Assembly (NCBI RefSeq): GCF_041438805.1
Contig: NZ_CP109190.1
Span: 3,782,001 to 3,846,000 of the forward strand
DNA: 64,000 nucleotides
DNA from: Streptomyces sp. NBC_01707
GTDB taxonomy: Bacteria; Actinomycetota; Actinomycetes; Streptomycetales; Streptomycetaceae
Reading direction: 5' to 3'
The translations under genes were made by a program, and so were the position numbers. The first letter of the stretch is position 1. Each line of letters begins with the position of its first letter. The notes under the pieces were generated by a model. The model did no database searches and was not told the DNA's origin. It saw only the letters and a program-made list of their open reading frames with translations. This document shows positions 5,109 to 47,770 of this stretch, piece after piece.

Positions 5109-5292
5109 GAGGGCCATCCTGGCGCCCGGCGGGAGCGGGTGTACATCCCTCATGGACGCGAACGGCCGGCGTCCGGCCCGAGATCTCGAGGAACTGTGCC
5201 CCGACATCCGCGCGTCACCGCCGAGGGCGTCGCCAAGACGCCCGCCGCACTGCCGCAGGCGCCGGTACGGGGAGTGACCGGTGGGCGGTCCC

Positions 5293-5318
5293 GCGGCCGG
5301 CCTCCGGACGCCGGCCGC
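5293..5318 (-). terminator. GC-rich stem-loop downstream of the ferritin-like gene
   Basis: A 9-bp perfect inverted repeat (5293-5301 with 5310-5318, GCGGCCGGC/GCCGGCCGC) and an 8-nt loop lie 24 bp past the stop of the minus-strand diiron gene. There is no U-tract, as is usual in Streptomyces. Confidence 0.5.
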
Positions 5319-5341
5319 TCGAGGGCCTGGTGGTGGGCCGC

Positions 5342-6445
5342 CTACGCCGAGCCGTCCGCTATCGCGTCCTCGACCTCCGCCACGCGGGCCTGTTCCTCCG
5401 CCGCGAACCGGTCTCGGTCCAGCTGTTCGGCGATCTCCTCGTCCTGGGCCATCAGCAGGTCCAGGTTGGAGTCGCCGAGCTCGAAGACGCCCATGTCGAC
5501 GTAGGCCTTCTGGAGCCTTTCGCCCCACAGTCCTATGTCCTTGACGCACGGGACTATCCGGCTGAACAGCAGCTTGCGGAAGAGCTGCAGATACTCCGAG
5601 TGCTCGGAGAGCTCCTTGGCCTCCTGCTTGCCCACGCCGAAGTTCTGCAGCACCTCGACACCGCTGAGCCGGTCCCGCATCAGGTAGCAGCCCTCGATGA
5701 CGAACTCCTCGCGTTCGCGCAGTTCGGCGTCGCTCAGCTGCTTGTAGTAGTCGCGCAGCGCCATTCGTCCGAAGGCGACATGGCGGGCCTCGTCCTGCAT
5801 GACGTACGCGAGGATCTGCTTGGGCAACGGCTTGGTCGTGGTGTCGCGGATCATGCCGAAGGCGGCGAGGGCGAGCCCCTCGATGAGGACCTGCATGCCG
5901 AGGTACGGCATGTCCCAGCGCGAGTCGCGCAGGGTGTCGCCCAGCAGGCCCTGCAGGTTGTCGTTGACCGGGTAGAGCATCCCGACCTTCTCGTGCAGGA
6001 ACCTGCCGTAGATCTCCGCGTGCCGGGCCTCGTCCATGGTCTGGGTCGCGGAGTAGAACTTCGCGTCCAGATCGGGGACCGACTCCACGATCCTGGCCGC
6101 ACAGATCATGGCGCCCTGCTCGCCATGGAGGAACTGGCTGAACTGCCAGGAGGTGTAGTGCTTGCGCAGCTCCCCCCGGTCCTTCTCGGTCATCTTCGCC
6201 CAGTGCGGTGTGCCGTACAGCGTGAGCGCCTCGTCCGGGGTGCCGAGCGGGTCGGCGGGGTCGACCTCCAGGCTCCAGTCGATGCGCTTGTTGCCGTCCC
6301 ACTGCTTGTCCTTGCCCTTCTGGTAGAGGGCGAGGAGGCGCTCGCGGCCGTCGTCGTACTCCCAGCTGAAGCGGGCGGCGCCGGAGGCGGGCACCTGCCA
6401 CAGCGGTTCCTCGGGGGCGGTGGTGTAGAGGTCGTGTGTCGACAC
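5342..6445 (-). CDS. Ferritin-like / R2-like diiron protein
   Basis: This 367-aa protein has the ribonucleotide-reductase-R2-like ferritin fold. The diiron ligand pattern is clear: Glu in FLHGEQGAM, DEARH in QTMDEARHAEIYG, Glu in VLIEGLALAAFG, and a second DEARH in QDEARHVAFGRM. These proteins act as oxidases or oxygenases or have redox functions; the substrate is unknown. The GTG at 6445 is chosen because a strong AAGGAG lies 6 nt upstream. The frame extends to a weaker start at 6511 with no such site. It is divergent from a second diiron protein (AurF-like) at 6624 and shares a 178-bp control region with it. Confidence 0.85.
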   Translation of the reverse strand: MSTHDLYTTAPEEPLWQVPASGAARFSWEYDDGRERLLALYQKGKDKQWDGNKRIDWSLEVDPADPLGTPDEALTLYGTPHWAKMTEKDRGELRKHYTSWQFSQFLHGEQGAMICAARIVESVPDLDAKFYSATQTMDEARHAEIYGRFLHEKVGMLYPVNDNLQGLLGDTLRDSRWDMPYLGMQVLIEGLALAAFGMIRDTTTKPLPKQILAYVMQDEARHVAFGRMALRDYYKQLSDAELREREEFVIEGCYLMRDRLSGVEVLQNFGVGKQEAKELSEHSEYLQLFRKLLFSRIVPCVKDIGLWGERLQKAYVDMGVFELGDSNLDLLMAQDEEIAEQLDRDRFAAEEQARVAEVEDAIADGSA

Positions 6446-6508
6446 GGACGGCTCCTTCGCCTCGCATGGTTCGATAAGTTCCGTGGCGGTTACGTCAGTT
6501 GGCAGGTT

Positions 6509-8653: not shown

Positions 8654-8737
8654 CCCGCGCGCATCCCGGCTGCGCGCACCGGACCCTCTAAGATCGACGG
8701 ATCCATGGTCACGAGACCGGTCACAAGGGGGTGCGCC

Positions 8738-32900: not shown

Positions 32901-33819
32901 GACCGGCGAGGACTACACCCCGCTGCTCTACCTCGCCGACGACCAGGCCCGTTACAACGTCTACGACTCGCTGCTCTCCGAGTACGCGGCGATGGGCTTC
33001 GAGTACGGCTACTCGCTGGCCCGCCCGGAGTCGCTGGTCATCTGGGAGGCCCAGTTCGGTGACTTCGTCAACGGCGCGCAGACCGTCGTCGACGAGTTCA
33101 TCTCCTCGGCCGAGCAGAAGTGGGGCCAGACCTCCGGCGTCACGCTGCTCCTGCCGCACGGCTACGAGGGCCAGGGCCCGGACCACTCGTCCGCCCGCCC
33201 GGAGCGCTTCCTCCAGATGTGCGCGCAGGACAACATGACGGTCGCCATGCCGACCCTCCCGTCGAACTACTTCCACCTCCTGCGGTGGCAGGTGCACAAC
33301 CCGCACCACAAGCCGCTGATCGTCTTCACCCCGAAGTCGATGCTCCGTCTCAAGGCGGCGGCGTCGAAGGCGGAGGAGTTCACCACCGGCGGCTTCCGCC
33401 CGGTGATCGGCGACGACTCGGTCGACCCGAACGCGGTTCGCAAGGTCGTCTTCTGCGCCGGCAAGGTCTACTACGACCTGGAGGCCGAGCGCGAGAAGCG
33501 CGGTGTCACGGACACGGCGATCATCCGTCTGGAGCGCCTGTACCCGCTGCCGGGTGCCGAGCTCCAGGCCGAGATCGCCAAGTACCCGAACGCCGAGAAG
33601 TACCTGTGGGCCCAGGAGGAGCCGGCCAACCAGGGCGCCTGGCCGTTCATCGCCCTGAACCTGATCGACCACCTGGACCTGGCCGTCGGCGCCGACGTCC
33701 CGCACGGTGAGCGCCTGCGCCGCATCTCGCGGCCGCACGGCTCCTCCCCGGCGGTCGGCTCGGCCAAGCGGCACCAGGCGGAGCAGGCTCAGCTGGTCGC
33801 CGAGGTCTTCGAGGCCTGA
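29938..33819 (+). CDS. kgd: Multifunctional 2-oxoglutarate dehydrogenase E1-E2 / decarboxylase
   Basis: This 1293-aa actinobacterial fusion enzyme is the TCA-cycle entry for 2-oxoglutarate. A short E1 N-terminal segment (about 45-82, [14 protein letters not shown]) is followed by an Ala/Pro linker (about 84-170). An E2 succinyltransferase core has active-site His388 in [10 protein letters not shown]. The thiamine-diphosphate E1 domain runs from GD at 714-715 to NN at 747-748. The lipoyl domain is absent, so lipoyl groups come from another E2. The TTG start is supported by AAGGAGG 8 nt upstream; a GTG at MSSQSPS is the usual alternative. In relatives its E1 is inhibited by the FHA protein OdhI/GarA. 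Confidence 0.96.
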
Positions 33820-33835
33820 TCAGCGACTGTACGAA

Positions 33836-33881
33836 CCGGAGGGCCCGGCCCCGCGAGTGATCGCGGGGCCGGGCCCTCCGG
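33836..33881. terminator. Very strong bidirectional terminator between kgd and the Fxs island
   Basis: A 21-bp perfect stem (33836-33856 with 33861-33881) with a GTGA loop lies between the convergent stops of kgd and the TIR/NB-ARC/TPR gene. Confidence 0.92.
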
Positions 33882-33914: not shown

Positions 33915-36908
33915 TCAGATCAGCTGCGGCTCGAAATCCCAGAAGGGCCGGTTGCGCGAACGCGCCGAGACCGTGTGCACGTGCTGCGCACCCAGCGTCG
34001 AGACCAGGTCACCCAGCGCTTCGCTCTCCACCTTGTCGGCCCGGCGCCGGTCCCGGGTGCCGCGCAGATCCGCCGCGTACGCGATCCGGGCGGACAGGCT
34101 GAGCGGATGCGTGCGGCCGAGTGCCTCGGCGGCACGTGCGATGACCGATTCCGTCAAGGACGCCGCGGACTCCGGCTCACCCACGAGGTTGCGCAGCGCC
34201 GAGGCGTTGATGGCGACGCCGAGGGTCCACGGGTGGTTCTCACCGACGGCGCGCGTCATGTCCACGAGCGCGTTCTCGCCCAGGACGTGCGCCTGTTCGC
34301 GCTCTCCGACGTTGCGCAGAATCAGGGCATGGTTGGAGCGGACCCCCGCTACGTACGGGTGGTTCTCGCCGAGCATCCGTACGTACCCGTCGACGACGCG
34401 TTCGCTTATCGCCCTCGCCTGGTCGATGTCCGCGTGCTCGCGGGCGAAGCAGCTCTGTCCGGCCGCGAACATCATGGTGAGGGGGTCGTCCTCGCCGAGC
34501 ACCCGTTCGCTGCGCTCGAGTACGCGGGTGAAGAGGGACGCCGCTGCGGCCCGGTCGCCACCTCGGTAGAGACACAGGGCCAGATTGTGTTCGGACAGGA
34601 GCGTCTGCGGGTTGTCCTGGCCCAGGACGATGTGGTGCATGCGGGTGCTGCGTGTCTGGAGGGACTCGGCCTCGGCGTACCGGCCCAGGAGTCGCAGATC
34701 GGTCGAGTAGTTGATCTCGGAGCTCAGCGTCCAGCCGTGGCGGTGGCCCAGGCGGTCCCGGTGCTTGTCCAGGGTGCGCCGGTTGAGCTCCCGCGATTCC
34801 TCGTAACGGCCGAGCAGACGGAGCGAAATGGCCAGGTTGTTCTGGGCGGTGATGGTGCGGGAGTCGTCGCCGAGGATTTCGCGGTAGGAGTTCAGCAGCC
34901 GCTGGGACATCTCCAGGGCGTCCTCGTACCTGCCGAGTCCTCGGAGGTCCGCGGCAAGGCCGTTGCAGGCCCGGAGGAATTCCAGGTCCCTCTCGCCCCG
35001 CTCCGTGCGCAGATGGTCCACCGCGGCCTGCTCCATGGCTGCGGTCTCCGCGTAGTTGCCCACGGACCGCAGCAGGTTGGCGTAGTTGTAGCTGAGGTCC
35101 CAGATCCGCGGGTGGGTCTCGCCGAGCAACTCCTTCCAGGCGGTCATGGCCCGGCCCGCAAGCTTGATACCCGCCCGGTACTCCCCGGAGAAGTACATGT
35201 AGCGCAGGCAGTTGAGCACCAGGGTGTGCACGGCAGGATCGGTGCTGCGCAGGACATCGGCCCATTTGAGGTGGGGTGTGATCTCGGCGTAGGCGGGCCA
35301 CTGCCGGGAGTCGATGGGCCGGCCGGGGTCCGCCGCCGTGAGGGCGCGCCGTACGACGCCGGCGAACTCCTCCCGGTCCCGCTCCGGCATGTCCTTGCCG
35401 ATGATCTGGTGCACCATGCGGTGCAGGTAGACGGATTCCCCTGCGATGGACACCTCGTCGTCGGAGGACTCGTGGGACTCGAGCCGGACCACGGAGTACT
35501 GGCGGAGCTGGCTGATGGCACGGTTCCACAGCAGCGGGTCGTTCATCAGCCCGGCCAGTTGCTCGGGCAGATCGCCGGCGGGCATGTCCTTCAGCAGCCG
35601 CACCGGAATCGAACCGGGTGCGAAGAAGCTGCACAGGCGCAGCAGGTCGACGGACTCGGGGACGGTCTCCCTGAGCTTGTTCAGCAGTATCGACCATGCG
35701 GTCTGGAAGGCCAGCGGGAAGTCCGCGGACACCTTGACCACGTCCTGGTCGATGCCCCCGGCCAGGAGTTCGATGTACTCCTCGACCGACATGTCGGAGT
35801 CGTTGAGCCAGCCCGCCGTCTGGTCGAGCAGGAGGGGCAGATCCTCCAGGGCTTCGGCGAGCCGGTCCGCGTCGGAAGGGGTCAGCCGGGGCGCACGGCG
35901 GCGGATGAACGAGACCGACTCGTCCCTGCTGTAGACCGGGACCTCGACGAGATTGCTGTTGTGCTCACCCCACTCGGGGTTGCGCGAGGTGATCAGCACA
36001 TGGCCGGGGCCGGTCGGCACCAGGTCCCAGATGTGCTCGGGCTCGTCGGCGCCGTCCAGGACGAGAAGCCAGTGGGAATACGGATCGCCGCGCCGCAGGG
36101 AGTCGCGGACCGCCCGGAGCCGTTCGCCGTACTCGGCACCGGTGGGCAGACCGAGTTCGGGGGCGAGTTCGGCGAGTTTCTGGCGATACAGGGCTCGGCG
36201 GTCGGCCGGTACCCACCAGACCACGTCGTACTCGGACCCGAACCGGTAGACGTACTCGGCGGCCAGCTGCGTCTTCCCCACGCCGGACATCCCGTGGAAC
36301 GTGATGACGCCGGCACCGCGTCCGGCTCCCTGGAACGCGTGATACGTGTCGCCCAACAAGCGCTCGCGTCCGGTGAAGCGTGTGTTGCGACGGGGAACTC
36401 CGCCCCAGACCTCGGGGGTGTCCGCCGGGAAGCGCGGCCCGGGCCTGGTGTCCGCCTGGTCTGGCAGTGGGTCCGTGGGCAGGGAGAGGCTGACCAGCAT
36501 GCGGCGTTCGGCCTCGGCGGCGCCGACGTTGGTGAGATCGGCGGCTCCGAAGACGGAGGTGGCGGCAGGCAGCGCGGACGTGGTGAGCGAGACCGCGGCG
36601 AAGCGCTCGCGGTCGAGTGCGACGACATTCCGCAGCGCCCTGTTCCACTCGTCATGGCTCCGAGGGCCGAGCTGGAAGTACCACTCGCTGAGGACGACGA
36701 GGATGCGCCCCGGAGCAAGCATCAGATCCTGGAGCGATTCCTCCAGCGTGGCATCGTCCTGCGGATCCCAGCGCTGGTAGACGACATGCACTCCGCGCCG
36801 TTCGAGACGGTCCCCGATCCAGGCTGCCCAGGCTCGGTTGAATCCGGCGAAACTGATCGTGACGGATTGCGTCCCCGATGCTTCAACTTGCTTACCTGCT
36901 AGGGGCAT
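33915..36908 (-). CDS. FxSxx-COOH system TIR-like/NB-ARC/TPR protein (FxsT type)
   Basis: This 997-aa STAND-type protein has a TIR-like N-terminal domain (about 14-110; VTISFAGFNRAWAAWIGDRL, then ILVVLSEWY and SHDEWNRAL). A linker leads to an NB-ARC ATPase (about 178-450) with Walker A GMSGVGKTQ at 206-214 and Walker B HWLLVLDGADE. About ten TPR units (about 590-960) follow, with typical NLAxxLRxLGRYEEA repeats. It matches the TPR protein that accompanies FxSxx-COOH peptides. Such proteins sense a ligand through the TPRs and oligomerise; the TIR may hydrolyse NAD, which is inference. It is the last gene of the island. A GGGAG lies 8 nt upstream, in an A/T-richer leader. Confidence 0.88.
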   Translation of the reverse strand: MPLAGKQVEASGTQSVTISFAGFNRAWAAWIGDRLERRGVHVVYQRWDPQDDATLEESLQDLMLAPGRILVVLSEWYFQLGPRSHDEWNRALRNVVALDRERFAAVSLTTSALPAATSVFGAADLTNVGAAEAERRMLVSLSLPTDPLPDQADTRPGPRFPADTPEVWGGVPRRNTRFTGRERLLGDTYHAFQGAGRGAGVITFHGMSGVGKTQLAAEYVYRFGSEYDVVWWVPADRRALYRQKLAELAPELGLPTGAEYGERLRAVRDSLRRGDPYSHWLLVLDGADEPEHIWDLVPTGPGHVLITSRNPEWGEHNSNLVEVPVYSRDESVSFIRRRAPRLTPSDADRLAEALEDLPLLLDQTAGWLNDSDMSVEEYIELLAGGIDQDVVKVSADFPLAFQTAWSILLNKLRETVPESVDLLRLCSFFAPGSIPVRLLKDMPAGDLPEQLAGLMNDPLLWNRAISQLRQYSVVRLESHESSDDEVSIAGESVYLHRMVHQIIGKDMPERDREEFAGVVRRALTAADPGRPIDSRQWPAYAEITPHLKWADVLRSTDPAVHTLVLNCLRYMYFSGEYRAGIKLAGRAMTAWKELLGETHPRIWDLSYNYANLLRSVGNYAETAAMEQAAVDHLRTERGERDLEFLRACNGLAADLRGLGRYEDALEMSQRLLNSYREILGDDSRTITAQNNLAISLRLLGRYEESRELNRRTLDKHRDRLGHRHGWTLSSEINYSTDLRLLGRYAEAESLQTRSTRMHHIVLGQDNPQTLLSEHNLALCLYRGGDRAAAASLFTRVLERSERVLGEDDPLTMMFAAGQSCFAREHADIDQARAISERVVDGYVRMLGENHPYVAGVRSNHALILRNVGEREQAHVLGENALVDMTRAVGENHPWTLGVAINASALRNLVGEPESAASLTESVIARAAEALGRTHPLSLSARIAYAADLRGTRDRRRADKVESEALGDLVSTLGAQHVHTVSARSRNRPFWDFEPQLI

Positions 36909-36998
36909 TCAGCCGTCTCCCTGCATCATTACAAGCCCTACTAACTTATCATCAGGAAAGGTCGGTGACGGTGAATCACTGCCACGCGGGCGCCGCCG

Positions 36999-38384
36999 TC
37001 ACACACGACCGGAGTCGTTCCTCTGCTGCCATATCACGCGGGCCGTGCTCACATAGGCGCGCGCGCGGGCCAGGTGGCCTACCGGAGGCGGACAATCCGC
37101 CAGACGGTGGTAGAGCGTGATCAATTCATTGACGACGACCCTTCCCTCCGGCGTGAGCGCGCCGGAGCCGGCGAGGACCGGCAGAACCGCACCGGTCTGT
37201 TCCCGGCTGCGTGTGTGTTCGGTCCAGGCGAGGTCGCGCAGCCCGGCGCTCTGCGCGCCGAGCGCACACCGCTGCCAGAAGTCTGCGAGCGCGAGATGGG
37301 CGTACGCGCCCTGGAACAGCCCGTCGAAGGGCCGGGGGTCGGGTCGCCAGGGCGCGAAGTGACGCGGGGTCGAGTCCTCACGGTGCAGCGGAACCAGCGC
37401 GGCGAGCGCGGCCAGTTTGGTGTGCTGAAGTTCGTGCACGAGCGTCGAGGCCAGCAGGGCCGGGGAGACCGGCCTGCTGCTCAGGACGGCGCCGAACGCC
37501 TCGCGGCGGGTGCCGCTGCAGTGGGCGGGCCCGTCACCGGCACCGCCGGATCCGGGCGGCGGCGTGAGGGGGACCAGACATCGCAGCAGGGCGGCCGCCT
37601 CGGCGAGCCGGTGGGCGCCCCCGGTGTGCAGCAGGGGCGTCACGCGCGACCACCACGCCGCCCAGGCGCTCTGTTCCCCGGTGTCCCGCGGGGCGGCGTC
37701 GCCGAGACCGTGACGGCGCTGCCCGCTGCCGGACGTGCGGTAGGGGTCGAGGTCGTCGAGCGGCACGAGGACACCGCCTTCCACCAGGGCCGGAAGTGCG
37801 AGCAGGGGCAGCCAGCGCGGGTCGGCGGACTCGGCCCCGCTGCCGCCGAATCGGACGACGAGGTCCGTCGCGTCCCGCTGTCGTACCGTCAGCCACTCTC
37901 CGTCGAAATGGAGGTCGGCCTCGCCCGGGAGCGTACGCAACGAGCCGAGCGTGGGCAGCGGCAGCGTGGGGGCGACGGCAGTGAGCCGGGTGGTGAAGGG
38001 CAGCGCGGACCGGATGGCCGCCGCCGCGGCGACGGCTCCGAGGTGCGAGAGATCGGCCCCCGGCACCGGCCCGGCCCGTCCGGAGAGCAGACCGTACAGG
38101 CAACCGCGGACCCATGGGCCCACCAGCGGATAGAAGAGCACTGATCGCGCGGCGCCCCGGTCGGCTCGTTCCGCCGCCGCCAGTAGCGTCCAGTGGGTGT
38201 GGAGCCGATCGAGCCGGTCGGCGGGGCAGACGTCCACGGGCGCCTGACCGGCGGCGTCGAGCAGCGCCCGCAGGGAGGCGAGCCTGCGGGTGTGCTGGTC
38301 CCGGACGAGCAGATCGAGTGCCTCGGGCCCTCCTCCGGTCCGGCCCAACTCGCGCAGGAACCGGTCGGGGACGGCGGAGGTCAT
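36999..38384 (-). CDS. HExxH-type peptide-modification protein (FxsB-associated)
   Basis: This 461-aa protein carries HELQH at residues 317-321 (TLVHELQHTKLAALAAL). It is the signature of the HExxH putative peptide-modification family, recently described as 2-oxoglutarate-dependent peptide beta-hydroxylases that act on radical-SAM-made RiPPs. The motif is complete. In many genomes this domain is fused to FxsB; here it is separate. It is coupled to the radical SAM gene by an ATGA overlap, so the two enzymes very likely act on the same precursor. Confidence 0.85.
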   Translation of the reverse strand: MTSAVPDRFLRELGRTGGGPEALDLLVRDQHTRRLASLRALLDAAGQAPVDVCPADRLDRLHTHWTLLAAAERADRGAARSVLFYPLVGPWVRGCLYGLLSGRAGPVPGADLSHLGAVAAAAAIRSALPFTTRLTAVAPTLPLPTLGSLRTLPGEADLHFDGEWLTVRQRDATDLVVRFGGSGAESADPRWLPLLALPALVEGGVLVPLDDLDPYRTSGSGQRRHGLGDAAPRDTGEQSAWAAWWSRVTPLLHTGGAHRLAEAAALLRCLVPLTPPPGSGGAGDGPAHCSGTRREAFGAVLSSRPVSPALLASTLVHELQHTKLAALAALVPLHREDSTPRHFAPWRPDPRPFDGLFQGAYAHLALADFWQRCALGAQSAGLRDLAWTEHTRSREQTGAVLPVLAGSGALTPEGRVVVNELITLYHRLADCPPPVGHLARARAYVSTARVIWQQRNDSGRV

Positions 38385-39613
38385 GCGGGGGCTCCCGCGG
38401 TCGCGTCGGACAGCCCGGCAGCGACATGGCGGATCAGCCGGTCGAGGTCGGCGCAGTAGACGGAGGGGTTGATGAAGCCGTGTCCGGCACGGTACCGGTG
38501 GGCGTAGTGACCGCCGCCGCAGACCGTGAGCAGCGGGCAGGAACGGCATGTGGCGGCCAGCGCATCGGCGCCCGCCTGACGTGCGGCGACCCCCGGGTGA
38601 CGCAGGGCCCGGTCGAAGCTGTGCCGGAAGACGTCGAGTCCGGTGGCGGCTGCCGTGTCGTAGGCCGATTTGAGGGAGTCGACCTGTTCGATCGCCCCGT
38701 CGGTCTCCACGACCACGGCGTTGAGCGGATCGAGGCCGAGGGCCTCGGCCGCGGCCGGCAGCCCGAGCAACAGCGCGAGACATTCCTCGAAGAGCCGTAT
38801 CCGGGTCTCACGTCGTCCGGCCGGCCACCAGCGGTCGAATACGGCGCACAGCCAGTCGCCGTACGGGGTGGGCCGGCCACCGGTCCGTCGCACTCTCGCT
38901 GCCGTGGCGTCCCGCGGCCGGACGCCGGACATTCCGGGGGGTGGCGCGGACCAGTTCCCGTGCGGCAACAACAGGTCCAGGGTGGGCGGGCGGAGGTCGA
39001 GGAGCGAGGCGTACATCTCGACGGGATCGCTCTGCAGGTCGACCACGGTGAGGATGCCTGCGTAGGTCTCGGGATGGTGGTCGGCGAGGAGGCGTGCGCC
39101 CCGCAGAGCGGCGGGCCAGGACGGCCGGCCCGCGTGGTCGACGCGCTGGGTGTTGTGGGCGGGCAGACCTCCGTCGAGGCTGATGCCGACCCGGATGCCG
39201 GCGCCGGCCAGGGTCGCGATGCCGGCGTCGGTGAGCAGCGTCGCATTGGTCTGCACGGTGGTGTGCAGGACGCAACCGTCGGGAAGCCCCTCACGTACCC
39301 GGTCGGTGAAGGCCGCCAGCCGTCCGGCGCCGACCAGCAGGGGTTCGCCGCCGTGCAGTACGAGGGCCACCTCGGTCAGCCGGTGGGTTGCGGCGTGCTC
39401 GGCGATGCGGGACGCGGTGTGCTCCAGGACATCGGCCGGCGCCGCGGCCGGGCGGTCACGCCAGGTCCGGTCCGGCCCCGCGTACAGGTAGCAGTACCGG
39501 CAGGCGAGGTTGCAGCGGCCGTGCATCTTGACGATGAACTGCCCGAAGGGCACCGCGCCGTGGCGTTCGGGCCCGGTGTCGGACGACGCGTGCGTGGTCG
39601 TCTGTCGAGACAC
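38381..39613 (-). CDS. FxsB-family radical SAM/SPASM peptide maturase
   Basis: This 410-aa radical SAM enzyme has the 4Fe-4S motif Cys34-x3-Cys38-x2-Cys41 in RCNLACRYCYLY, then LVLHGGEPLLV (SAM contact). A SPASM-type C-terminal cysteine cluster follows (CRSCPLLTVCGG, later YCADL) for auxiliary clusters. Family members install C-C (cyclophane) cross-links in FxSxx-COOH peptides. The GTG start is chosen because GAGGGGG lies 5-6 nt upstream; the upstream in-frame region to 39706 is non-conserved. The precursor gene lies 198 bp upstream in the same direction. Confidence 0.9.
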   Translation of the reverse strand: MSRQTTTHASSDTGPERHGAVPFGQFIVKMHGRCNLACRYCYLYAGPDRTWRDRPAAAPADVLEHTASRIAEHAATHRLTEVALVLHGGEPLLVGAGRLAAFTDRVREGLPDGCVLHTTVQTNATLLTDAGIATLAGAGIRVGISLDGGLPAHNTQRVDHAGRPSWPAALRGARLLADHHPETYAGILTVVDLQSDPVEMYASLLDLRPPTLDLLLPHGNWSAPPPGMSGVRPRDATAARVRRTGGRPTPYGDWLCAVFDRWWPAGRRETRIRLFEECLALLLGLPAAAEALGLDPLNAVVVETDGAIEQVDSLKSAYDTAAATGLDVFRHSFDRALRHPGVAARQAGADALAATCRSCPLLTVCGGGHYAHRYRAGHGFINPSVYCADLDRLIRHVAAGLSDATAGAPA

Positions 39614-39751
39614 GCCGGCCCCCTCGCTGTGCGACCCACGACACGCTCTGCCGGACGGCCCCCGCCCTCGAGAGGAGTCTCTCTGGCCCGGCTGAACCGC
39701 AAACACCCCCCTGGCGAGGTTGCCCTGTTCGCTGGGGTGGACGGCCGAAAC

Positions 39752-39810
39752 CGGTCGGGTCGCCCTCCCGGCACGGGTCCGTCTCCCTGCCGGGGAGTAC
39801 GGCCCGACCG
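39752..39810 (-). terminator. Nested stem-loop between the peptide gene and its maturase (attenuator candidate)
   Basis: Outer arms CGGTCGGG (39752-39759) and CCCGACCG (39803-39810) enclose an inner hairpin CCCGGCA/TGCCGGG. It begins two bases after the precursor stop codon, where RiPP operons often have a partial terminator that raises precursor over enzyme levels. Confidence 0.55.
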
Positions 39811-39811
39811 T

Positions 39812-40015
39812 TCAAAGGGCGCTCTGGAAACCCCACAGCATCTCCCCCGGCCGTTCGGAACGACCGCGCAGGTCCTCGATCACCGCCTTGAGGACCGGAT
39901 GGTCCACGGTGCGCAGCGTCTCGAGATCGATCTCCAGCAGGTCGGGGAGGACCCCGGTGCCGCGCTCCGGCACCTGTGTCGGGCTTGCCTCGTCCTTACG
40001 TGCGGACACGCTCAT
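39812..40015 (-). CDS. FxSxx-COOH RiPP precursor peptide (FxsA type)
   Basis: This 67-aa peptide ends in GFQSAL, i.e. Phe-x-Ser-x-x-COOH at the extreme C-terminus, the defining feature of FxSxx-COOH proteins. The middle (TGVLPDLLEIDLETLRTVDHPVL, split here as TGVLPDLLEIDLE and TLRTVDHPVL) is the conserved leader-like region. The C-terminal core includes Trp, Phe and Ser near the end, the residues expected to be cross-linked by FxsB. It is too short for most gene callers' comfort but has a GGGAG 5 nt before the ATG. A GTG one codon earlier (40018) is an alternative. Confidence 0.88.
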   Translation of the reverse strand: MSVSARKDEASPTQVPERGTGVLPDLLEIDLETLRTVDHPVLKAVIEDLRGRSERPGEMLWGFQSAL

Positions 40016-40114
40016 CACCGCTCCCGGTTACGTCGTACTCGACTCACTGCCCTGCGCTCGTCCGTGGGCGCAAGGCACCTGGTGTTCCGGTTGCGAACGC
40101 ACGCCTTTGTGCGC

Positions 40115-43100
40115 TCATCGTTCAAGTTCGGCAAGGCGGGCCGCAGTCGCCTCACCCGCCGCGCCACCGCCGTCCGGCATCGTGCGCCACTCCTGGGCAG
40201 CCGCTCGGTAGGCCTCACGTGCCGCTCGGGGCCGATCTGCCTCTTCATACGTCATACCCCGACAGTGGTTGGCCTGAGCACTCAACTCCACTGCTTGTAG
40301 GAACTGTTGCGGATTCTCCCGCTCGGCTGCGGCCGTCCGGGCCGACTCGGCTGCGTCCCGGAACGCCTCGGCCGCCTCGTCCAGCCGCGCCGGCCGGCGC
40401 AGCACGTGGTACGCGTCGACGTGCGACCGGCCGAGTTCCAGCAGACACCGGGCGGCGGTCAGCGGATCGCGCGCTTCCCGGGCCGCGAGCCCGAAGAGAT
40501 GCTCGGCCTCCCGCAGATCGACCCGGTCCTCGGTGGCCCGGTGGCGCAGCATGAGAGCCCGGCCGAGCATGAGCAGCCGGTCCGCCTGGCTGTCGCTGTC
40601 CGAAGGGGTCTCTGTGCGGCAGTCGCGCAGGATGCGCACTGCCGTGCCGATGTACGGCCGCCCGTCGGGCAGTTCGGCACGACGCAGCATGATCTCGCCC
40701 CATTCGGCGAGCAGATCCGCGTGGGCCCGGGAGTCCCTCGGCATCCCGCGGGCGGCCCGGCCGAACCACTCCGCCGCGAGGCCGAGTTCGTCCGCGTCAC
40801 CGGTGTGCTCGTACCGGGCCGCGCTAACCCGGCCCGCTCTGAGCTGCAGCAAGGCGCGCGTGCGCTGGTCGCGTACGGTCGCAAGTGCCTGCTCGACCAG
40901 GGTCGCTGCCTCATCGGGCTCGGTGCCCGAGGCCAGCAGGGCGTCCACCAGGTCCAGCAGGATGCGTGTCTGCGCGCCGCCCATGGTGTGCTCGCCCCCC
41001 TCCCCGGAGAGCACCTTGCGCAGCGACCGGGCCCCCTGTCCCGCGTAGAGCCGGGACTGCTCGGGGTCGGCCGTCGCCCGGGCCAGATGCAGAAGTGTGC
41101 GGCCGTGCGCCAGCGCCAGGCTCATCGGGCGGTTCTCCTGATCGGGCCAGACGTCGGCGAACGCCTCCAGCATGCCCACCGCCCCCTGCAGCAGGGAGCT
41201 GTCGCCGCTGAGCCGCCATTGCGCCTCCATCGCCCGCACCCGCTCCAGGGTGAGCCGCAGCGCCTCGGCGGGGTCTAGCCCGGCCGCCGCACAGGCGATC
41301 GTGTACTCGGCGTCGGCGCGGCGCAGGAGATTCAGCGCCCCGCGCCGGTCGCCGCGCCGCCGCCGGTCGTCGGCCGCGGCGTGCAGCACCTTGGCCAGCA
41401 CGGCCCGCTCGCGTGCCGCCCCGGGCTGCGCGGCGGCGAGTTCCGCGGCGTGCTCGGCCTCGCGCAGCAGCTCACTGCCGCCCTGGACCTCCCACAGCCG
41501 CAGCACGCACCGGGCGTACTCGGCCCAGAGTTCCGGGTCGGCGCCAGGCCGCTCCTCGTGTTCGGTGGCGCCCCGCAGCAGCTGCACGGCGTCGATCAGG
41601 TACTGCACCATGCTGTCCGTGTCGAAATGGCGCAGGAGCGCGCGGGCGCTCTCCACCGCCGTGTGCGTCGTGCGGTCGGTGGCGCCGTGGCCGCGCCGGT
41701 CGCCGTAGAGCGCGAACTGCTCTGGCAAGGGCATGAAACGCTCCAGTACGCGGGCCGCGACCTCGGCGAAGGGGTGAGGGACGCGCGACCCGCTTCCACC
41801 CCTCTCCCCGCTCTCGTCACCCTCTTCGCTCTCCCCGTGCTCGCCGAAGCCGCCGCCGTGCGTGCGCGGCCCGATGTCCGTGACGTACGAGGAGGTGCCC
41901 CTGCCCTCCCCGAGCTGTGCGTACGCCAGCGCGGGAAAGTTCGGCCCGCCCTTGCCGAACCGCTGTTCTATGTACTCCGAGCAGTGCTTGAGCACGAGCA
42001 GTGCCTCATCCCGTCCCAGCGGTCCGAGCAGCGCCTCCTGGACACCGGGTGCGAACTCGTACCACTGCCCCATGCCCGTGACGTCGGCCCTGCTGCGCGA
42101 CAGCAGGCCGCTGAGCAGCACCTCGGCAAGCTCGGAGGGGCCCGAATCGGGCAGCATCGTCCGCTGCACCAGTTGCATCACCGGTAGGTAGAGCGGGGCC
42201 GCGGCGAGATAGACCGCCAGCTGTCCGGCGACCGGGGAGGCCGTCGAACGGAAGCGGCTGACCAACTGGAGCGACGACATCCGGTCGCCCGGACGCGGCG
42301 CGGGGGCCGCGGGCTGGTCTCCCCTGACCCAGCCGACCGCTCCGGAGATGCGACCGGCGCCGGTGCCGGAGAGCAGCCTGGCCCAGGCGGCGAGCGCGCC
42401 CGCCACCGGCGGCAGTACGGGGACGGCGAGGGCGCCGGGACGGGTGGTGGGCACACCGCCGGCCTCCTCGGTGACTTTCAGCACGGCGGCGCCGGAGAGC
42501 CCTTCGCCACGGGAGAGCGCGCCGTAGGTGACCGGCAGTCGGGTGCGGTTCCACATGCGCTGCGGCAGCGGCTGCAGTACGGCGGTCGGGGCCTGCCGGG
42601 CCAGCTGATGCAGCAGTCGGTGGGCCCGCCCGCTGTGCCAGAGCGGTCCGGCGCAGTCACTGACGAGTACGGTGACCCGGCGGCCGGTCGGATCGCTGAG
42701 CCGGTCCGCAGAGTTCAGTGGTGCGGCGGCCGGGTCCGGACTTCGGCTGACCGCGCAGGAGCCGTCGGGCCCGCGGTGCAGATAGCGCACCTGGACATCT
42801 CTGAATGCCCCCAACTGACTGAATACCTGTTGGAGTTCACCGAACATCCGGTCCCAGACGCGCATCGACGACGAGGCGTCCATGACGAACTGCAGGAGTG
42901 CGTCGGCCCGGGAGACACCACGGAACACCGGAATGATCAACCCGCCTGCCCTGGCGCTCAGTTCCGCGGTGGCCGTCTCGTCCAGGACGCGGCGCGTGGG
43001 GGGCGAGGCGGGGCGGTAGCGCTGCAAGGGGCGTAAGGCACGCTGGAGTTCGAGGGGCGCGGGGAGTGCGGGTGCGGCAGGCACGCCGAGGGTGAGGGTG

Positions 43101-43588
43101 GTGGCGGTGCGGCCCGCACGGCCGCGTAAGCCGTCCTCCTCATCGCTGCGCACGCCGTCCTGTGCCGCCGCGTTCGGCAGCGGTACGGGGTACAGGGAGA
43201 TGCGGTGGTCGGTGTCCCCGGGGTCCTCCTGCGCGGCGCCGTCGTCGACCGGTGCGGTGTCCGTGGTGACGCCATGCGCGTTCGCGGGCCGGACGGACGG
43301 CGTGGCCGGCCGTTCGCCGGGCAGCCGACCGTGTGAGGACGCACCGGTGACGCCGCTCTCCTCCTCCCCCTCGGGTGCGTCGGGTCGGCGGGTCCACCGG
43401 GCGAGCCAGAGGGCGTCGCAGAGCTGTTCGGCATCGGGGTCGAGTCCGGCCTCGCGCAGCCGGGCCACGAGTGCGGGCAGCAGATCTCCCGCGTAAGGCT
43501 CCGGCGCCCGCCCTTCCGGCTCCGAGCCAGGCTCCGAACCCGGAAGTGGACCGCCTTCCGGATCATGCCGTGCCGCGGCATGGGGCAT
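40115..43588 (-). CDS. SAV_2336-type protein with vWA domain and TPR-like C-terminus
   Basis: This 1157-aa soluble protein has an N-terminal helical segment (about 30-70), the SAV_2336-related region, then a low-complexity linker. A von Willebrand A domain (about 215-400) carries an intact MIDAS start D237-A-S239-S-S241 (FVMDASSSM) and a later VLVSDCAGPLW strand. A middle helical domain follows, and TPR-like helices run from about 640 to the end. vWA proteins next to MoxR ATPases act as metal-dependent adaptors that hand substrates to the ATPase. GAGG lies 8-9 nt before the ATG, and only 7 bp separate it from the MoxR stop. Confidence 0.83.
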   Translation of the reverse strand: MPHAAARHDPEGGPLPGSEPGSEPEGRAPEPYAGDLLPALVARLREAGLDPDAEQLCDALWLARWTRRPDAPEGEEESGVTGASSHGRLPGERPATPSVRPANAHGVTTDTAPVDDGAAQEDPGDTDHRISLYPVPLPNAAAQDGVRSDEEDGLRGRAGRTATTLTLGVPAAPALPAPLELQRALRPLQRYRPASPPTRRVLDETATAELSARAGGLIIPVFRGVSRADALLQFVMDASSSMRVWDRMFGELQQVFSQLGAFRDVQVRYLHRGPDGSCAVSRSPDPAAAPLNSADRLSDPTGRRVTVLVSDCAGPLWHSGRAHRLLHQLARQAPTAVLQPLPQRMWNRTRLPVTYGALSRGEGLSGAAVLKVTEEAGGVPTTRPGALAVPVLPPVAGALAAWARLLSGTGAGRISGAVGWVRGDQPAAPAPRPGDRMSSLQLVSRFRSTASPVAGQLAVYLAAAPLYLPVMQLVQRTMLPDSGPSELAEVLLSGLLSRSRADVTGMGQWYEFAPGVQEALLGPLGRDEALLVLKHCSEYIEQRFGKGGPNFPALAYAQLGEGRGTSSYVTDIGPRTHGGGFGEHGESEEGDESGERGGSGSRVPHPFAEVAARVLERFMPLPEQFALYGDRRGHGATDRTTHTAVESARALLRHFDTDSMVQYLIDAVQLLRGATEHEERPGADPELWAEYARCVLRLWEVQGGSELLREAEHAAELAAAQPGAARERAVLAKVLHAAADDRRRRGDRRGALNLLRRADAEYTIACAAAGLDPAEALRLTLERVRAMEAQWRLSGDSSLLQGAVGMLEAFADVWPDQENRPMSLALAHGRTLLHLARATADPEQSRLYAGQGARSLRKVLSGEGGEHTMGGAQTRILLDLVDALLASGTEPDEAATLVEQALATVRDQRTRALLQLRAGRVSAARYEHTGDADELGLAAEWFGRAARGMPRDSRAHADLLAEWGEIMLRRAELPDGRPYIGTAVRILRDCRTETPSDSDSQADRLLMLGRALMLRHRATEDRVDLREAEHLFGLAAREARDPLTAARCLLELGRSHVDAYHVLRRPARLDEAAEAFRDAAESARTAAAERENPQQFLQAVELSAQANHCRGMTYEEADRPRAAREAYRAAAQEWRTMPDGGGAAGEATAARLAELER

Positions 43589-43595
43589 CAGCTCA

Positions 43596-44642
43596 TCACC
43601 TCGGCCGGTCGAGTCGCTGGATCAGCAGGTCGGCGAGCCGGTCCCGGCCGGCCGGGGCAGCGGCGTCGGTGAGGTAGATCGCGTTCAACAACTGGTCGGT
43701 GGCGAGGAGTTCGCTGCGTGACCGTTCCAGGAAGTGGGCGATGAGATCATCCCCGGAACGCGCCGCCTCGTCGCCGAGATGGGCGCGGACGAAGGTGGCC
43801 AGCCGCTGGTGGTCGGGGCGCCCCAGCTCCAGGTGGATGCAGCGGCGCATCAGTGGGGCCGGGAAGTCGCGTTCGCCGTTGCTGGTGAGCACGACGAACG
43901 GGAAGGCCGCGCACTGCACCCGGCCGTCCTTGACCGTCACTCTGGTGCCGTCGTCGGTCAGCACCTCGGCCTCCCCGTCAGGCAGCCGGTCGGCGATCCG
44001 CTCCAGTTCGGGGATGCCGAACTCGCCCTCCTCCAGCACGTTCAGGAGGTCGTTCGGCAGGTCGATGTCGCTCTTGTCGAGCTCGTCGATGAGCAGCACA
44101 CGGGGCCGGTCGGAGGGCAGCAGTGCGGTGCCGAGGGGGCCGAGGCGGATATAACTGCCGACGTTGTCCGCCGCGTCGGCTCCGGGCCTTCCGGTAGCGG
44201 CGCTGTGCGCGGCGATCTGCACGTCCTGCAGCCTGGCGATCGCGTCGTAGTGGTAGAGGCCGTCAAGGAGGGTGGAGCGGCTGACGATGGGCCAGCGCAG
44301 GACCCGGCCGAGCCCGAGTTCATGGGCGACGGAGTGCGCCAGCGTGCTCTTTCCGGCACCGGGGCTGCCGGTGACCAGCAGCGGACGACGCAGATAGAGC
44401 GCGGCGTTGATCATTTCGAGCTCCTCGGCGCCGGGCCGGTGGAGTTCGGCGAGGTGCCGGTGGCCGCCGAGCCGTCGGGTGGCCGAGCCGTCGGTGAGCG
44501 CACCGTCATCGTCCGCGTCGTCGGAGTCCGGGGCGCCGCGGCCCGCGAAGTCACGCCACGGGGGCGGGGGCGGCAGCTGTTCGATACCCCCGTGCGGTTC
44601 GCCGGCCCCTCGGTAGATGAGCCACTCGCTCGGTTCATTCAT
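43596..44642 (-). CDS. MoxR-family AAA+ ATPase
   Basis: This 348-aa AAA+ protein has Walker A TGSPGAGKST (residues 91-100), Walker B VLLIDELDKSDID (186-187 acidic pair), sensor 1 FVVLTSNGERDFP and an arginine-finger region (PLMRRCIHLEL). It has an unusual 60-residue Pro/Asp-rich N-terminal extension. MoxR proteins remodel or activate client complexes together with vWA partners, as with the gene directly downstream. It is transcribed with the protease and Trypco1 genes upstream (118-bp gap). Confidence 0.92.
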   Translation of the reverse strand: MNEPSEWLIYRGAGEPHGGIEQLPPPPPWRDFAGRGAPDSDDADDDGALTDGSATRRLGGHRHLAELHRPGAEELEMINAALYLRRPLLVTGSPGAGKSTLAHSVAHELGLGRVLRWPIVSRSTLLDGLYHYDAIARLQDVQIAAHSAATGRPGADAADNVGSYIRLGPLGTALLPSDRPRVLLIDELDKSDIDLPNDLLNVLEEGEFGIPELERIADRLPDGEAEVLTDDGTRVTVKDGRVQCAAFPFVVLTSNGERDFPAPLMRRCIHLELGRPDHQRLATFVRAHLGDEAARSGDDLIAHFLERSRSELLATDQLLNAIYLTDAAAPAGRDRLADLLIQRLDRPR

Positions 44643-44760
44643 AGCGTGTTCCTCGTCGTCACTCGTCCGCCAAGGCGTCTTTGAGGGGCAGCAGCCGTCG
44701 ACCGTGCCTCACGGTAGCGATCCGGGCACTCCCCCGTAAGGGGCGCACCGGCGCGCCCGT

Positions 44761-46842
44761 TCACGGCGCCTCCAGGAGCTGACCCGAGCCGGGCAGAGAA
44801 TAGTGCGGATCGTCATAGAACAGGGCAATACCGTCCGACCAGTACGTCTCCGTGCGACCCGCGCGCACGCCCTGTCTCAATTCGTGGATCTTCTGCGGCA
44901 ACCGGTCGGAGGTGCGGACCTCCGCGACGGTGTCGGCCGCGCGCCGGTGGAATTCCGTACAGACCGCGTCGGCCTCACCCGTCCGCCGCCACAGGGCCAC
45001 ACCGAAGCCGCCTTCGAGCACCCGCACCAGTCCGGCCGCGGTCTCCGGGCCCGGCCGGTCGCCGTACCGGCAGAGCACCGGCACGGTCTCGTGCGCCAGG
45101 GCGTGCAGCGCCGTCAACTCCGGTACGCGGACGGCCATCCCGTCCTCGCAGTCGACGACCTCGGCCTGCATCGAGGAGTTCCTGGTGCTGTTCCAGCGGG
45201 TCCGGCGCAGCCGGTCCAGTTCATCGGTCGGCTGCCCCCGCTCCGAGCGGCGGACGACCACCGGACGTACGACGCCGAGCGGCAGCCCGTCGGGGGTCAC
45301 CTGCCAGCCGTCGACGTCCAGGCCGAAGAGCGCCGGTACGACCGCGACCTGGAGCACGGCGGGGCTGTCCGGTTCGTCGCACCGCCTGAAGGCCTCGGCG
45401 AGCGGGGCGGCGAGCCGCTCCGGCAGGGCGCCGAGCCCCGTGCCCTGGCTGTCCTCGGCGACGGGCAGGACCTCCCCGGTGGGGCGGGCGACGCCGATCC
45501 GCCAGTCGTACAGGTCCCGTTCCCAGCCCCGCGGCTCCAGCTCCAGCAGGACGAAGGCGCGTTCGCCGTACCGGGCGGGCTCGTTCGTCGGGGCGGGGGC
45601 CCGTTGGTGCTCCTGGTCCCGGCGCTGCCGTACGGCGCGCCAGTGCAGCACGAGTTCCTGCCGGAAATCCCGGGAGAGGTCCTCGTCGGCGACCCGTTTC
45701 ACCCATTCCCAGAGGGACTTCGTGGCGGTGCGGGTGGAAGGCACGTCGAAGGGGCGGTCGGCGGCGAGGACGCCCATGCAGTAGCGCAGGACGAGTTCGA
45801 GCGCGGCGTCGCGGTCGCGGACGCGTGCGTCGTACAGCGAGCCGAGGCCGTCGCGCCACCCGCGCGGCGCCGGGCGGAGGTCGCGCGCGTGGACGTTCGG
45901 CAGGCCGTCGAGGAGCGCCAGCAGATTGCGGGTGCTGACCGGGGGCGGGAACTCGGCGAGCCTGCCCAGCAGATCGATCCGCCGCTTGGGGCTGAGCACC
46001 CGGCCGGGCGGCCCGGGCAGGTCGCTCTGCACATCGGCCCAGGTCCGCTCGGTGGAGGCGGGGCTGTTGTGCCGGTCGGCGTGGTAGCGGTCGTGGGCGT
46101 GGAAGACGGCCTGGTACGTATCGTCCGACTCGGTCTCCACGGGGCCTGCGGGGACCGTCAGGGAGCGCAGCCGCTCGATGCCTACGGCGGTGCCGCCCTG
46201 GTGGTCGTCGAGCCGCGACTTGATCACGCCGACCACCTCGCCCCGGGCCACGTCCACGACGGGGCCGCCGGACATTCCGGGCTCCAGCCAGTCCCCGTCG
46301 AGCCGGATCTGCTGGTCGGCGTCGGCCCAGCCGCCGTACGTGCCCTTCACCTCGCAGTCACCGCTGAGCGTCGTCAGCCCGCCGCCCGGCGAGGGCGCCC
46401 AGCCCACGCAGCGGACCTTGCGGCCGCGGAGCATGGCCTCCGAGCGCTCGGTGACGTACACACAGGTGTGTTCGACGGGCCGCCGGAGCTGGATGAGCGC
46501 GAGGTCGGGAGCGGGCCAGCCGGTGGCCCCGGCGGGCCGGCTCTCGGGCAGTGCGGCGAGCACCACACCGGGCACCTCGGTGAGCTCGGCGCTGTACGGA
46601 TCGGCCCTGAACAACACGTTCACCTCGCGCCCCTCCCCCCGCATGGCCACATGCGCGCACGTGAGGACCCAGCTCGGGGCGATGAAGAAGCCGCTTCCCA
46701 GGAATCCCTGGCCGGGTCCGTCAGTGGCATACCCGGCACCCGGGCGATGGATGCGTACGGTGGCGTCCCGCACGAGGTCCATGAGCGCGGTCTCAGCCTG
46801 GCCCGGACCCCCCTCCGCGCCCCCGCCGGCCTCCTGCGTCAT
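44761..46842 (-). CDS. Trypsin-like serine protease with VMAP-like C-terminal region
   Basis: This 693-aa protein has an N-terminal chymotrypsin-fold protease with a complete triad: His64 (TCAHV), Asp113 (PDLALIQL) and Ser191 (GMSGGPV). A helical effector-associated-like region follows (about 280-380). The C-terminal half (about 415-690) carries the PxxxGxPLGVVRPVVVRRSER and ALWRRTGE patterns of VMAP-type domains. There is no signal peptide, so it is cytoplasmic, unlike most trypsins. This combination is known from vWA-MoxR-associated ternary systems proposed to act in biological conflict. It overlaps the upstream gene as ATGA. Confidence 0.85.
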   Translation of the reverse strand: MTQEAGGGAEGGPGQAETALMDLVRDATVRIHRPGAGYATDGPGQGFLGSGFFIAPSWVLTCAHVAMRGEGREVNVLFRADPYSAELTEVPGVVLAALPESRPAGATGWPAPDLALIQLRRPVEHTCVYVTERSEAMLRGRKVRCVGWAPSPGGGLTTLSGDCEVKGTYGGWADADQQIRLDGDWLEPGMSGGPVVDVARGEVVGVIKSRLDDHQGGTAVGIERLRSLTVPAGPVETESDDTYQAVFHAHDRYHADRHNSPASTERTWADVQSDLPGPPGRVLSPKRRIDLLGRLAEFPPPVSTRNLLALLDGLPNVHARDLRPAPRGWRDGLGSLYDARVRDRDAALELVLRYCMGVLAADRPFDVPSTRTATKSLWEWVKRVADEDLSRDFRQELVLHWRAVRQRRDQEHQRAPAPTNEPARYGERAFVLLELEPRGWERDLYDWRIGVARPTGEVLPVAEDSQGTGLGALPERLAAPLAEAFRRCDEPDSPAVLQVAVVPALFGLDVDGWQVTPDGLPLGVVRPVVVRRSERGQPTDELDRLRRTRWNSTRNSSMQAEVVDCEDGMAVRVPELTALHALAHETVPVLCRYGDRPGPETAAGLVRVLEGGFGVALWRRTGEADAVCTEFHRRAADTVAEVRTSDRLPQKIHELRQGVRAGRTETYWSDGIALFYDDPHYSLPGSGQLLEAP

Positions 46843-47420
46843 GACCCGCCGCCGTCAGCGGCCGCGGCCGCATCGGGATGCGCCGGTGCGCCGGCGGGTG
46901 CCCCGGCGGGCGGCGACGGGGGCGCGGGCTCCGGTTGTACGGGGGGAGCCGAAGGCACCGGGGGCGCCTGGGCCGCAGGTGGCGTGGACGGGATCGGGGG
47001 CGCGGCCGGTGCGGCGGCCTGTGCGGGCACCTGGGGCGTGATCGGCGGATCGACGGGCGGTCCGCCGCCGTTCCAGGTGAGCGTGACCTTGATGGCGCCC
47101 TTGGCCTCCCCGTCCGCGAGGAGCCCGACGACCTTGCCCGCCTTGGCGGTGAGCTCGATGCCGAATTCGACACTGACCTCGTCCGGCTGCACGGCCCGCA
47201 GCGGCCCGGCGAGCGACCGCGCGACGCCGGTCACCACCCCCTGCAGGCTCTCCACCCGGGCCTGCACCTGGTCGGCGAAGTCCGAGAAGCCGGTGTCCGT
47301 GTAGGACAGGCCGCTGCCGGCCGGCGTTCGCCGAAGTTCCTCGGCCCCGGAGATCCGCGCCCAGACCGGCGTACCGTCCGGCAGCTCGATGCGCGTGATA
47401 CGGGCCTCGCTGTCGCTCAT
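46839..47420 (-). CDS. CU044_2847-type / Trypco1-like protein
   Basis: This 193-aa protein has a compact N-terminal domain (about 1-117: RITRIELPDGTPVWARI, then SVEFGIELTAKAGKVVGLLADGEAKG). It is of the CU044_2847 family, the trypsin-co-occurring domain 1. A 70-residue Pro/Ala tail follows. The domain is thought to be the sensor or target partner of the cytoplasmic trypsin encoded next; the four-base overlap between the genes supports this. ATG 47420 is preceded by a G-run. It is the first gene of the island. Confidence 0.85.
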   Translation of the reverse strand: MSDSEARITRIELPDGTPVWARISGAEELRRTPAGSGLSYTDTGFSDFADQVQARVESLQGVVTGVARSLAGPLRAVQPDEVSVEFGIELTAKAGKVVGLLADGEAKGAIKVTLTWNGGGPPVDPPITPQVPAQAAAPAAPPIPSTPPAAQAPPVPSAPPVQPEPAPPSPPAGAPAGAPAHPDAAAAADGGGS

Positions 47421-47584: not shown

Positions 47585-47770
47585 ATGTACTTCACCGACC
47601 GTGGCATCGAGGAGCTGGAGAAGCGGCGCGGCGAGGAGGAGGTCACCTTCGAGTGGCTCGCCGAGCAGCTGCGTACCTTCGTCGATCTCAACCCCGACTT
47701 CGAGGTTCCCGTCGAGCGCCTCGCGACCTGGCTCGCCCGGCTCGACGACGAGGACGAGGACGACGAGTAG
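47585..47770 (+). CDS. Small acidic protein (DUF6104-like)
   Basis: This 61-aa acidic protein starts MYFTDRGIEELEKRRGEEE and ends in a run of Asp/Glu (DDEDEDDE). I recognise it as the DUF6104 family, widespread in Streptomyces with no known function. It is monocistronic and divergent from the Trypco1 gene. Confidence 0.82.
   Translation: MYFTDRGIEELEKRRGEEEVTFEWLAEQLRTFVDLNPDFEVPVERLATWLARLDDEDEDDE

Follow-up and report, generated by a model that had tools for sequence, protein, structure and literature searches.

An FxSxx peptide cassette joined to a predicted VMAP-ternary conflict module at a fixed chromosomal site in Streptomyces

An eight-gene island between kgd and DUF6104

We analysed a 64,000-nucleotide stretch of the 9.9 Mb genome of Streptomyces sp. 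NBC_01707 (NZ_CP109190.1, positions 3,782,001 to 3,846,000; hereafter the window), in which eight genes between kgd and a DUF6104 gene join a ribosomally synthesised and post-translationally modified peptide (RiPP) system of the FxSxx-COOH type to a module of vWA, MoxR, trypsin-VMAP and Trypco1 proteins. An initial annotation of the sequence had proposed that these two halves form one pathway. The island and its flanks are:

29938..33819, plus strand: kgd (name as given in the initial annotation; start uncertain), one flank of the insertion site
33836..33881, no strand assigned: 21-bp hairpin between FxsT and kgd
33915..36908, minus strand: FxsT, a TIR / NB-ARC STAND / TPR protein of 997 aa; NF040586, 849.8 bits (cut-off 300)
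36999..38384, minus strand: HExxH protein of the aKG-HExxH-type peptide beta-hydroxylase family (aKG, alpha-ketoglutarate); TIGR04267, 167.6 bits (cut-off 40)
~38381..39616 (start uncertain), minus strand: FxsB radical SAM/SPASM maturase; TIGR04269, 409.8 bits (cut-off 370)
39812..40015, minus strand: precursor peptide of 67 aa, with LPDLLEIDLETLRTVDHPVL in the leader and the C-terminal core LWGFQSAL; TIGR04268, 44.9 bits (cut-off 28)
40115..43588, minus strand: vWA protein of 1157 aa, with a SAV_2336-type N-terminal region and an intact metal ion-dependent adhesion site (MIDAS) DxSxS
43596..44642, minus strand: MoxR-like AAA+ ATPase of 348 aa, Walker A and B intact
44761..46842, minus strand: trypsin-VMAP protein of 693 aa, with an HtrA/trypsin-type protease (model residues ~7-251), a helical middle and VMAP-C (443-679)
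46839..47420, minus strand: Trypco1 protein (PF19493) of 193 aa, the first gene of the island
47585..47770, plus strand: DUF6104 gene (PF19599), the other flank of the insertion site

All eight genes share the minus strand, and the composition first given for the two halves was borne out by family matches. Pfam families above their curated cut-offs were VMAP-C (PF20028, 136.3 bits; cut-off 27), Trypsin_2 (PF13365), Trypco1, Radical_SAM and TIR_2, and the corresponding NCBIfam families were the SAV_2336 N-terminal domain, the FxSxx-COOH peptide, FxsB, aKG-HExxH and FxsT. MoxR was recognised through AAA_5 and AAA, and the vWA protein had no Pfam match. The precursor could alternatively start at a GTG at 40018, FxsB has an intact CxxxCxxC and four auxiliary cysteines, and the TPR region of FxsT matches the kinesin light chain TPR (1.5e-14). 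As annotated, ATGA overlaps join Trypco1 to trypsin-VMAP and FxsB to HExxH, and 7 bp separate MoxR from vWA. The island also holds gaps of 118, 99, ~195 and 90 bp; therefore, a single transcript across it remains a proposal.

The initial annotation had closed the island with a 21-bp-stem terminator. The stem is real, with 21 perfect pairs and a 4-base loop (fold z -8.35), and no T run follows it. Its assignment to the island was rejected, since perfect stems of at least 14 pairs follow kgd at 27 of 48 sites with a cassette and 25 of 61 without; the hairpin more probably serves kgd itself or terminates in both directions. An intercistronic attenuator after the precursor was likewise rejected, because the window folds well there (39690-39811, z -2.54) and its relatives do not (mean z -0.57 over the first 85 bases past the precursor stop in 22 allele-A loci, two of them under -2). 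Searches for sigma-70 promoters and T-run terminators gave nothing above shuffled sequences.

The locus belongs to the predicted VMAP-ternary conflict systems with an FxSxx peptide, as described by Kaur et al. 2020 (PMC7159879). A VMAP protein with VMAP-C, a MoxR ATPase and a vWA protein lie in order, the VMAP protein is of the trypsin type with a Trypco1 neighbour, the precursor scores above the TIGR04268 cut-off and the FxsB-family maturase has its cluster cysteines. Kaur et al. give the FxSxx type a radical-SAM/SPASM gene, a vWA protein with TPRs only and a separate TIR-AP-ATPase gene downstream; our locus shares this gene set, the VMAP-MoxR-vWA order, the downstream TIR-AP-ATPase-TPR gene, the HExxH gene ('zincin') and the FxSxx peptide. 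The joint system was therefore already on record. These authors found a peptide-processing system with ~20% of actinobacterial VMAP-ternary systems, and 31 of the 150 VMAP-C rows listed here lie near FxsB. The HExxH protein, a metallopeptidase in their view, reads here as hydroxylase kin, and our analysis differs further in a core that is mostly FxN in named relatives and in the modelled VMAP-C fold. The composite itself was thus predicted in 2020, with no experimental test found in the literature searched; the insertion site, alleles, chemistry variants and VMAP-C fold are added here.

Linkage of the halves and the insertion site

To place the island among relatives we used an order sample of 147 genomes including that of the window (133 of the other 146 from the same genus). 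FxsB gave 137 rows, split by score rather than gene length into 67 of at least 500 bits (fused type) and 70 below (stand-alone type); at least one row above 500 bits has a short frame. Among the 150 VMAP-C rows listed, VMAP-C lay within 20 kb of at least 31 of the 70 stand-alone FxsB rows, compared with 0.42 expected under uniform placement, confirming that the halves co-occur above chance in this sample. The linked VMAP-C was always on the same strand, 5.4-8.4 kb upstream of FxsB (among the matches listed), and for the fused type at least 3 of 67 rows were near a listed VMAP-C match, against 0.17 expected. We examined 69 stand-alone FxsB loci besides the window's. In 39 of these both vWA and MoxR were present, and all 39 kept the order VMAP, MoxR, vWA, FxsB, (HExxH), FxsT on one strand, with HExxH in 28 and a Trypco1 match in 30. 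In 80 named FxsB relatives (L211-L290; 78 Streptomyces and two labelled Actinobacteria bacterium), which overlap in part with the order-sample loci and were counted separately, 63 loci had enough flank and 56 of these held seven genes in order. Chance linkage was ruled out by these counts and the fixed order.

The halves also diverged together. For 30 loci of the cassette alleles A, C and D (described below), distances in the conflict half and the RiPP half correlated at 0.93-0.98, compared with 0.31-0.43 against flanking genes. Partial correlations given the flank were 0.92-0.98 across A, C and D and 0.11-0.80 within A alone, where cassette and flank are both vertical. It is very improbable that the halves function independently and are only neighbours. 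As independence would allow, 27 of the 69 stand-alone loci have an unlinked FxsB (three more are cut by contig ends), a stand-alone FxsB within 20 kb is lacking for 119 of the 150 listed VMAP-C rows, and the 63 complete named loci include six without a MoxR match and seven without a VMAP match in the stretch; against it stand the linkage counts, the invariant order, matching MoxR and FxsB trees and the partial correlations, though these are weaker within A. The data therefore support the two halves as one inherited unit. This part of the one-pathway proposal stood, within the order: among 196 genomes sampled from the class (FxsB in 41, VMAP-C in 35), comparison by eye found, outside the order, one genome with both within 20 kb, on opposite strands.

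The unit occupies a fixed site. kgd was found in all 147 genomes and the flank gene F3 (DUF4097) in 139, and in 124 of the 134 same-genus genomes both lay on one contig. They were 0.4-5.1 kb apart in 67 of these 124, leaving no room for a cassette, and no VMAP-C or stand-alone FxsB was among the matches listed within 45 kb downstream of kgd in these 67. In the other 57 the genes were at least 6 kb apart, and the stretches between them held stand-alone FxsB in 37 and VMAP-C in at least 44. Six wide sites had neither among the matches listed; of the four examined, one (G031) is a class E cassette, and in G022, G082 and G085 no cassette match occurred in the stretch examined. We examined 77 further kgd sites, omitting the very short contig ends G075, G087, G088 and G137. 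Of 60 sites lacking a MoxR match, 52 had 82-586 bp between the kgd stop and the DUF6104 start (the longest of the 60, at G106, was 4505 bp); 41 sites with such a match had 7.8-17.2 kb. The cassette thus behaves as a block that is present or absent in a gap mostly under 1 kb.

Three sites have partial content. A lone FxsT beside kgd in G106 (L195), which is among the 67 sites with close flanks, and FxsT with partial FxsB and HExxH matches in G093 (L187), are possible remnants. In G104 (L194) the cassette is short, with 7.8 kb from kgd to DUF6104; it shows vWA, MoxR, VMAP and Trypco1 matches, no peptide-module match and a weak FxsT match only.

Cassette alleles and peptide cores

We sorted cassettes by protein similarity into alleles A (22 loci, including the window), B (10), C (6), D (3) and E (12). 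In trees of MoxR (51 rows) and FxsB (40 rows, no E), every group formed one side of a branch, with support of 99-100 for C and D, 99 and 94 for B, and 89 for E, but A reached only 57 and 47; the branch joining C and D had 89 and 97. Close species can hold different cassettes. Flank proteins F3 and F4 are 93% identical between G064 (C) and G095 (A), compared with 65, 62, 40, 41 and 35% for MoxR, FxsB, FxsT, vWA and VMAP. The corresponding values were 94, 83, 92, 84 and 81% for two A genomes (G095 and G066; flank 91%) and 98, 93, 92, 83 and 92% for two C genomes (G064 and G018; flank 89%). In the flank tree, built from 99 genomes with one per species, 21 changes were needed for occupancy, where 500 shuffles averaged 31 with a minimum of 22, and 25 for class label, where the shuffles averaged 37 with a minimum of 33. 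The states are therefore clustered yet often changing. Within A (21 loci), cassette distances followed the flank (correlation 0.79-0.95). We read allele A as old and vertical, with other alleles having replaced it or arrived at the same spot.

These patterns bear on whether the cassette serves hyphal development or stress signalling rather than defence. Kaur et al. 2020 (PMC7159879) report a strong association of VMAP systems with multicellular bacteria, and the way in which allele A tracks its flank would fit a house function. Such a role is nevertheless unlikely, given that the site has no room for a cassette in over half of the same-genus genomes with both flanks and that a core developmental gene would not usually come as different whole cassettes in closely related species.

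Two diverged forms were seen. Seven class B sites (L089, L096, L111, L115, L116, L120 and L132) had no Trypco1 match and had F3 23-29 kb from kgd in the opposite orientation, as if the flank were inverted. Two genomes from another family of the order (L083 and L099) carry a diverged cassette with FxsB, MoxR, vWA, VMAP and FxsT.

The maturation enzymes have solved relatives. FxsB matches ChlB (9gm3) at 2.7e-65, and the HExxH protein matches 22nu (3.6e-26; titled radical SAM core domain-containing protein) and ChlH (8s5f, 7.1e-7). ChlH is an alpha-ketoglutarate hydroxylase acting on Asp and His of a cyclophane peptide, and PflC and PosC are alpha-ketoglutarate HEXXH enzymes that cut the backbone oxidatively (PMC12636437, preprint). 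The HExxH protein, which scores above the TIGR04267 cut-off and has the motif and a later His, therefore reads as a ChlH homologue and hydroxylase kin; by homology, it would hydroxylate its peptide. Three-residue cyclophanes of Phe-Ser, Phe-Asn and Tyr-Asp are on record (PMC11002830, review). Triceptide and cyclophane RiPPs (ChlB/ChlH, MscB, YxdB; TIGR04268/TIGR04269, NF041709) share the maturase and precursor families and aromatic-x-S/N/D cores; here, in contrast, maturase and precursor lie inside a conflict cassette without a transporter gene.

A precursor profile, seeded with ten of the sequences later found, detected a precursor at all 53 A-E loci. Most leaders resemble LPDLxxLDLxxLRxxDHPVL; those of C are shorter, and E has DDP or similar for DHP. 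The core type follows the enzyme set. The window peptide ends FQSAL, and an aromatic-x-S/N tail was present in 28 of 32 loci with both FxsB and HExxH. The third core residue in the 80 named relatives is mostly Asn, by tail pattern (FxN 53, FxS 18, YxS 4, WxN 3, FxR 2). The C and D loci have FxsB, no HExxH match and an FxsT that starts soon after FxsB, and their cores are Y-E-D with a short tail in 9 of 9. The E loci have HExxH and no stand-alone FxsB row, and 12 of 12 have neither core motif, their tails mostly carrying Trp near acidic residues. When one peptide per class was compared with NF041709 (the YxD family), D was above the cut-off, C below it and E gave no match; PF27839 was reported in four of seven close class E relatives, and our local Pfam copy gave no such match. 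Since C and D lie together in both trees, the 9 of 9 Y-E-D match may be one event, and the core/enzyme match perhaps reflects two historical switches, not dozens of independent cases. Among the four types that the available text of Kaur et al. 2020 describes, we recognised neither the Y-E-D variant nor the variant with HExxH only and a separate FxsT.

The same variants bear on an improbable alternative, in which HExxH releases the core, either as a peptidase (the 2020 reading) or as an oxidative backbone cleaver. PflC and PosC do cleave oxidatively, PflC proteolysis occurs without the leader (PMC12636437, preprint) and class E has HExxH without a radical-SAM gene. On the other side, the solved relatives are ChlH and 22nu, the NCBIfam family is named beta-hydroxylase, and C and D lack the gene, so HExxH is unneeded for release in these alleles.

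Two further FxSxx loci differ in layout. L128 encodes FxsB and a Y-E-D precursor; its FxsT lies 6.3 kb off, a weak MoxR-like match was seen downstream, and the order is unlike the window's. The window's own genome holds a second, stand-alone system (L133, C1:7596000-7615900; C1 7.60-7.61 Mb) that shares the peptide (ending FSSAL; 25 bits, below the cut-off of 28), the radical-SAM enzyme and an FxsT relative. It differs in having FxsB fused to an HExxH-like part (754 aa), an FxsT relative of ~1311 aa and no vWA, MoxR or VMAP match in 19.9 kb.

Proposed working of the cassette

Catalytic residues were compared across alleles A-D. The protease Asp and Ser and the MoxR Walker K, D and E were each kept in 38 of 38, the protease His (H64) in at least 90% of 54 relatives, the HExxH motif with the later His H334 in 32 of 32, the radical-SAM cysteines in 40 of 41 (one gap), the FxsT P-loop Lys in 40 of 40 and the vWA MIDAS Asp in 38 of 40 (two gaps).

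The VMAP-C part was modelled with a caspase-type (CHAT/separase) protease fold. The model has the overall fold, and its best structural hit had a Foldseek TM of 0.49 at 8% identity. Pfam and PDB profile searches gave no sequence link to CHAT: the Pfam CHAT profile did not match VMAP-C, and 47 of 47 members matched PF20028 only (E up to 5). By these values VMAP-C stands apart from Craspase TPR-CHAT (Csx29) and separase. C591 (50/54), C628 (52/53) and H632 (46/54) are conserved, and a catalytic His-Cys dyad, if there is one, was not recognised at the expected strand ends. If VMAP-C truly has this fold, the signature domain of a large conflict-system family would join the caspase-like clan of Craspase and separase, a pointer to how the partner protease may be switched.

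Our tentative preference, with a somewhat less than even chance of being right, is for a VMAP-ternary FxSxx conflict system inherited as one kgd-DUF6104 cassette, with the peptide as the internal ligand of a TIR-STAND switch. It builds on the gene content, intact catalytic residues, co-inheritance and core-enzyme match described above, from which we infer all reactions, binding partners, trigger and outcome. The precursor leader would dock FxsB, which would cross-link the ring of F63 to the third core residue, S65 here and Asn in most relatives; hydroxylation of the core would fall to HExxH. The finished peptide would remain inside the cell, because the cassette has no exporter and no protease besides the trypsin-VMAP protein. 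Bound to the FxsT TPRs (or to the vWA/VMAP complex), it would serve the cassette as its own ligand and keep FxsT off or primed. The VMAP middle region would sense invasion, upon which MoxR would remodel the vWA/VMAP complex and free the HtrA-type protease. The freed protease would alter the peptide or FxsT, FxsT would assemble via its NB-ARC part, and its TIR would act, probably on NAD+, halting the infected hypha. VMAP was proposed as the sensor by Kaur et al. 2020 (PMC7159879), and the alternative, a vWA sensor with VMAP as effector, has also been put forward (PMC10907252).

Several observations weigh against this reading, alongside the intergenic gaps, the cassette-free sites and the joint position of C and D in the trees. 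At the position of the TIR Glu of FxsT, which we take to be the catalytic residue, all 6 C alleles carry Ala and 2 of the 9 B alleles carry Gln; the MIDAS Ser positions read T/A in two A loci. Four of the 32 double-enzyme loci have no F/Y/W-x-S/N tail (L081 WTFDEF, L086 WAFDEF, L110 FDAVL and L087 DYAERAS), and the profile found no precursor at the HExxH-less linked loci L083 and L099. For the seven cassette proteins scanned, PADLOC gave no more than weak partial matches. The FxsT TPR is no more divergent between alleles than other FxsT parts; receptor-specific TPR divergence was therefore rejected, and a peptide-reading TPR is not favoured.

It is quite unlikely that the mature peptide instead leaves the cell as a signal or bacteriocin, with FxsT and VMAP giving immunity or reading the signal. 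Kaur et al. 2020 (PMC7159879) speak of a peptide toxin or signal, and an allele-variable core would suit a signal; against export, Pfam and NCBIfam gave no transporter family for any of the eight proteins, and the predicted core is the extreme C-terminus of the 67-aa protein. A bolder version of the internal-ligand idea seems rather doubtful to us. The kgd site would be a multi-allele recognition locus, each allele having its own peptide chemotype (F-x-N/S cyclophane with hydroxylation, Y-E-D cyclophane or hydroxylation-only core) and its own TIR-STAND receptor, with whole alleles exchanged between close species as in self/non-self loci. VMAP would be a two-protease-fold switch, in which an active HtrA-type protease is joined to a CHAT/separase-fold domain that is probably a regulatory pseudoprotease. 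The fixed site, cassette-free comparators and three natural chemistry variants provide ready genetic controls for the purpose of the peptide.

Elsewhere in the window, 4224-6467 encodes a protein with a C-terminal ADP-ribosylglycohydrolase domain (PF03747) and 8705-11428 a protein kinase domain fused to PQQ-type propeller repeats.

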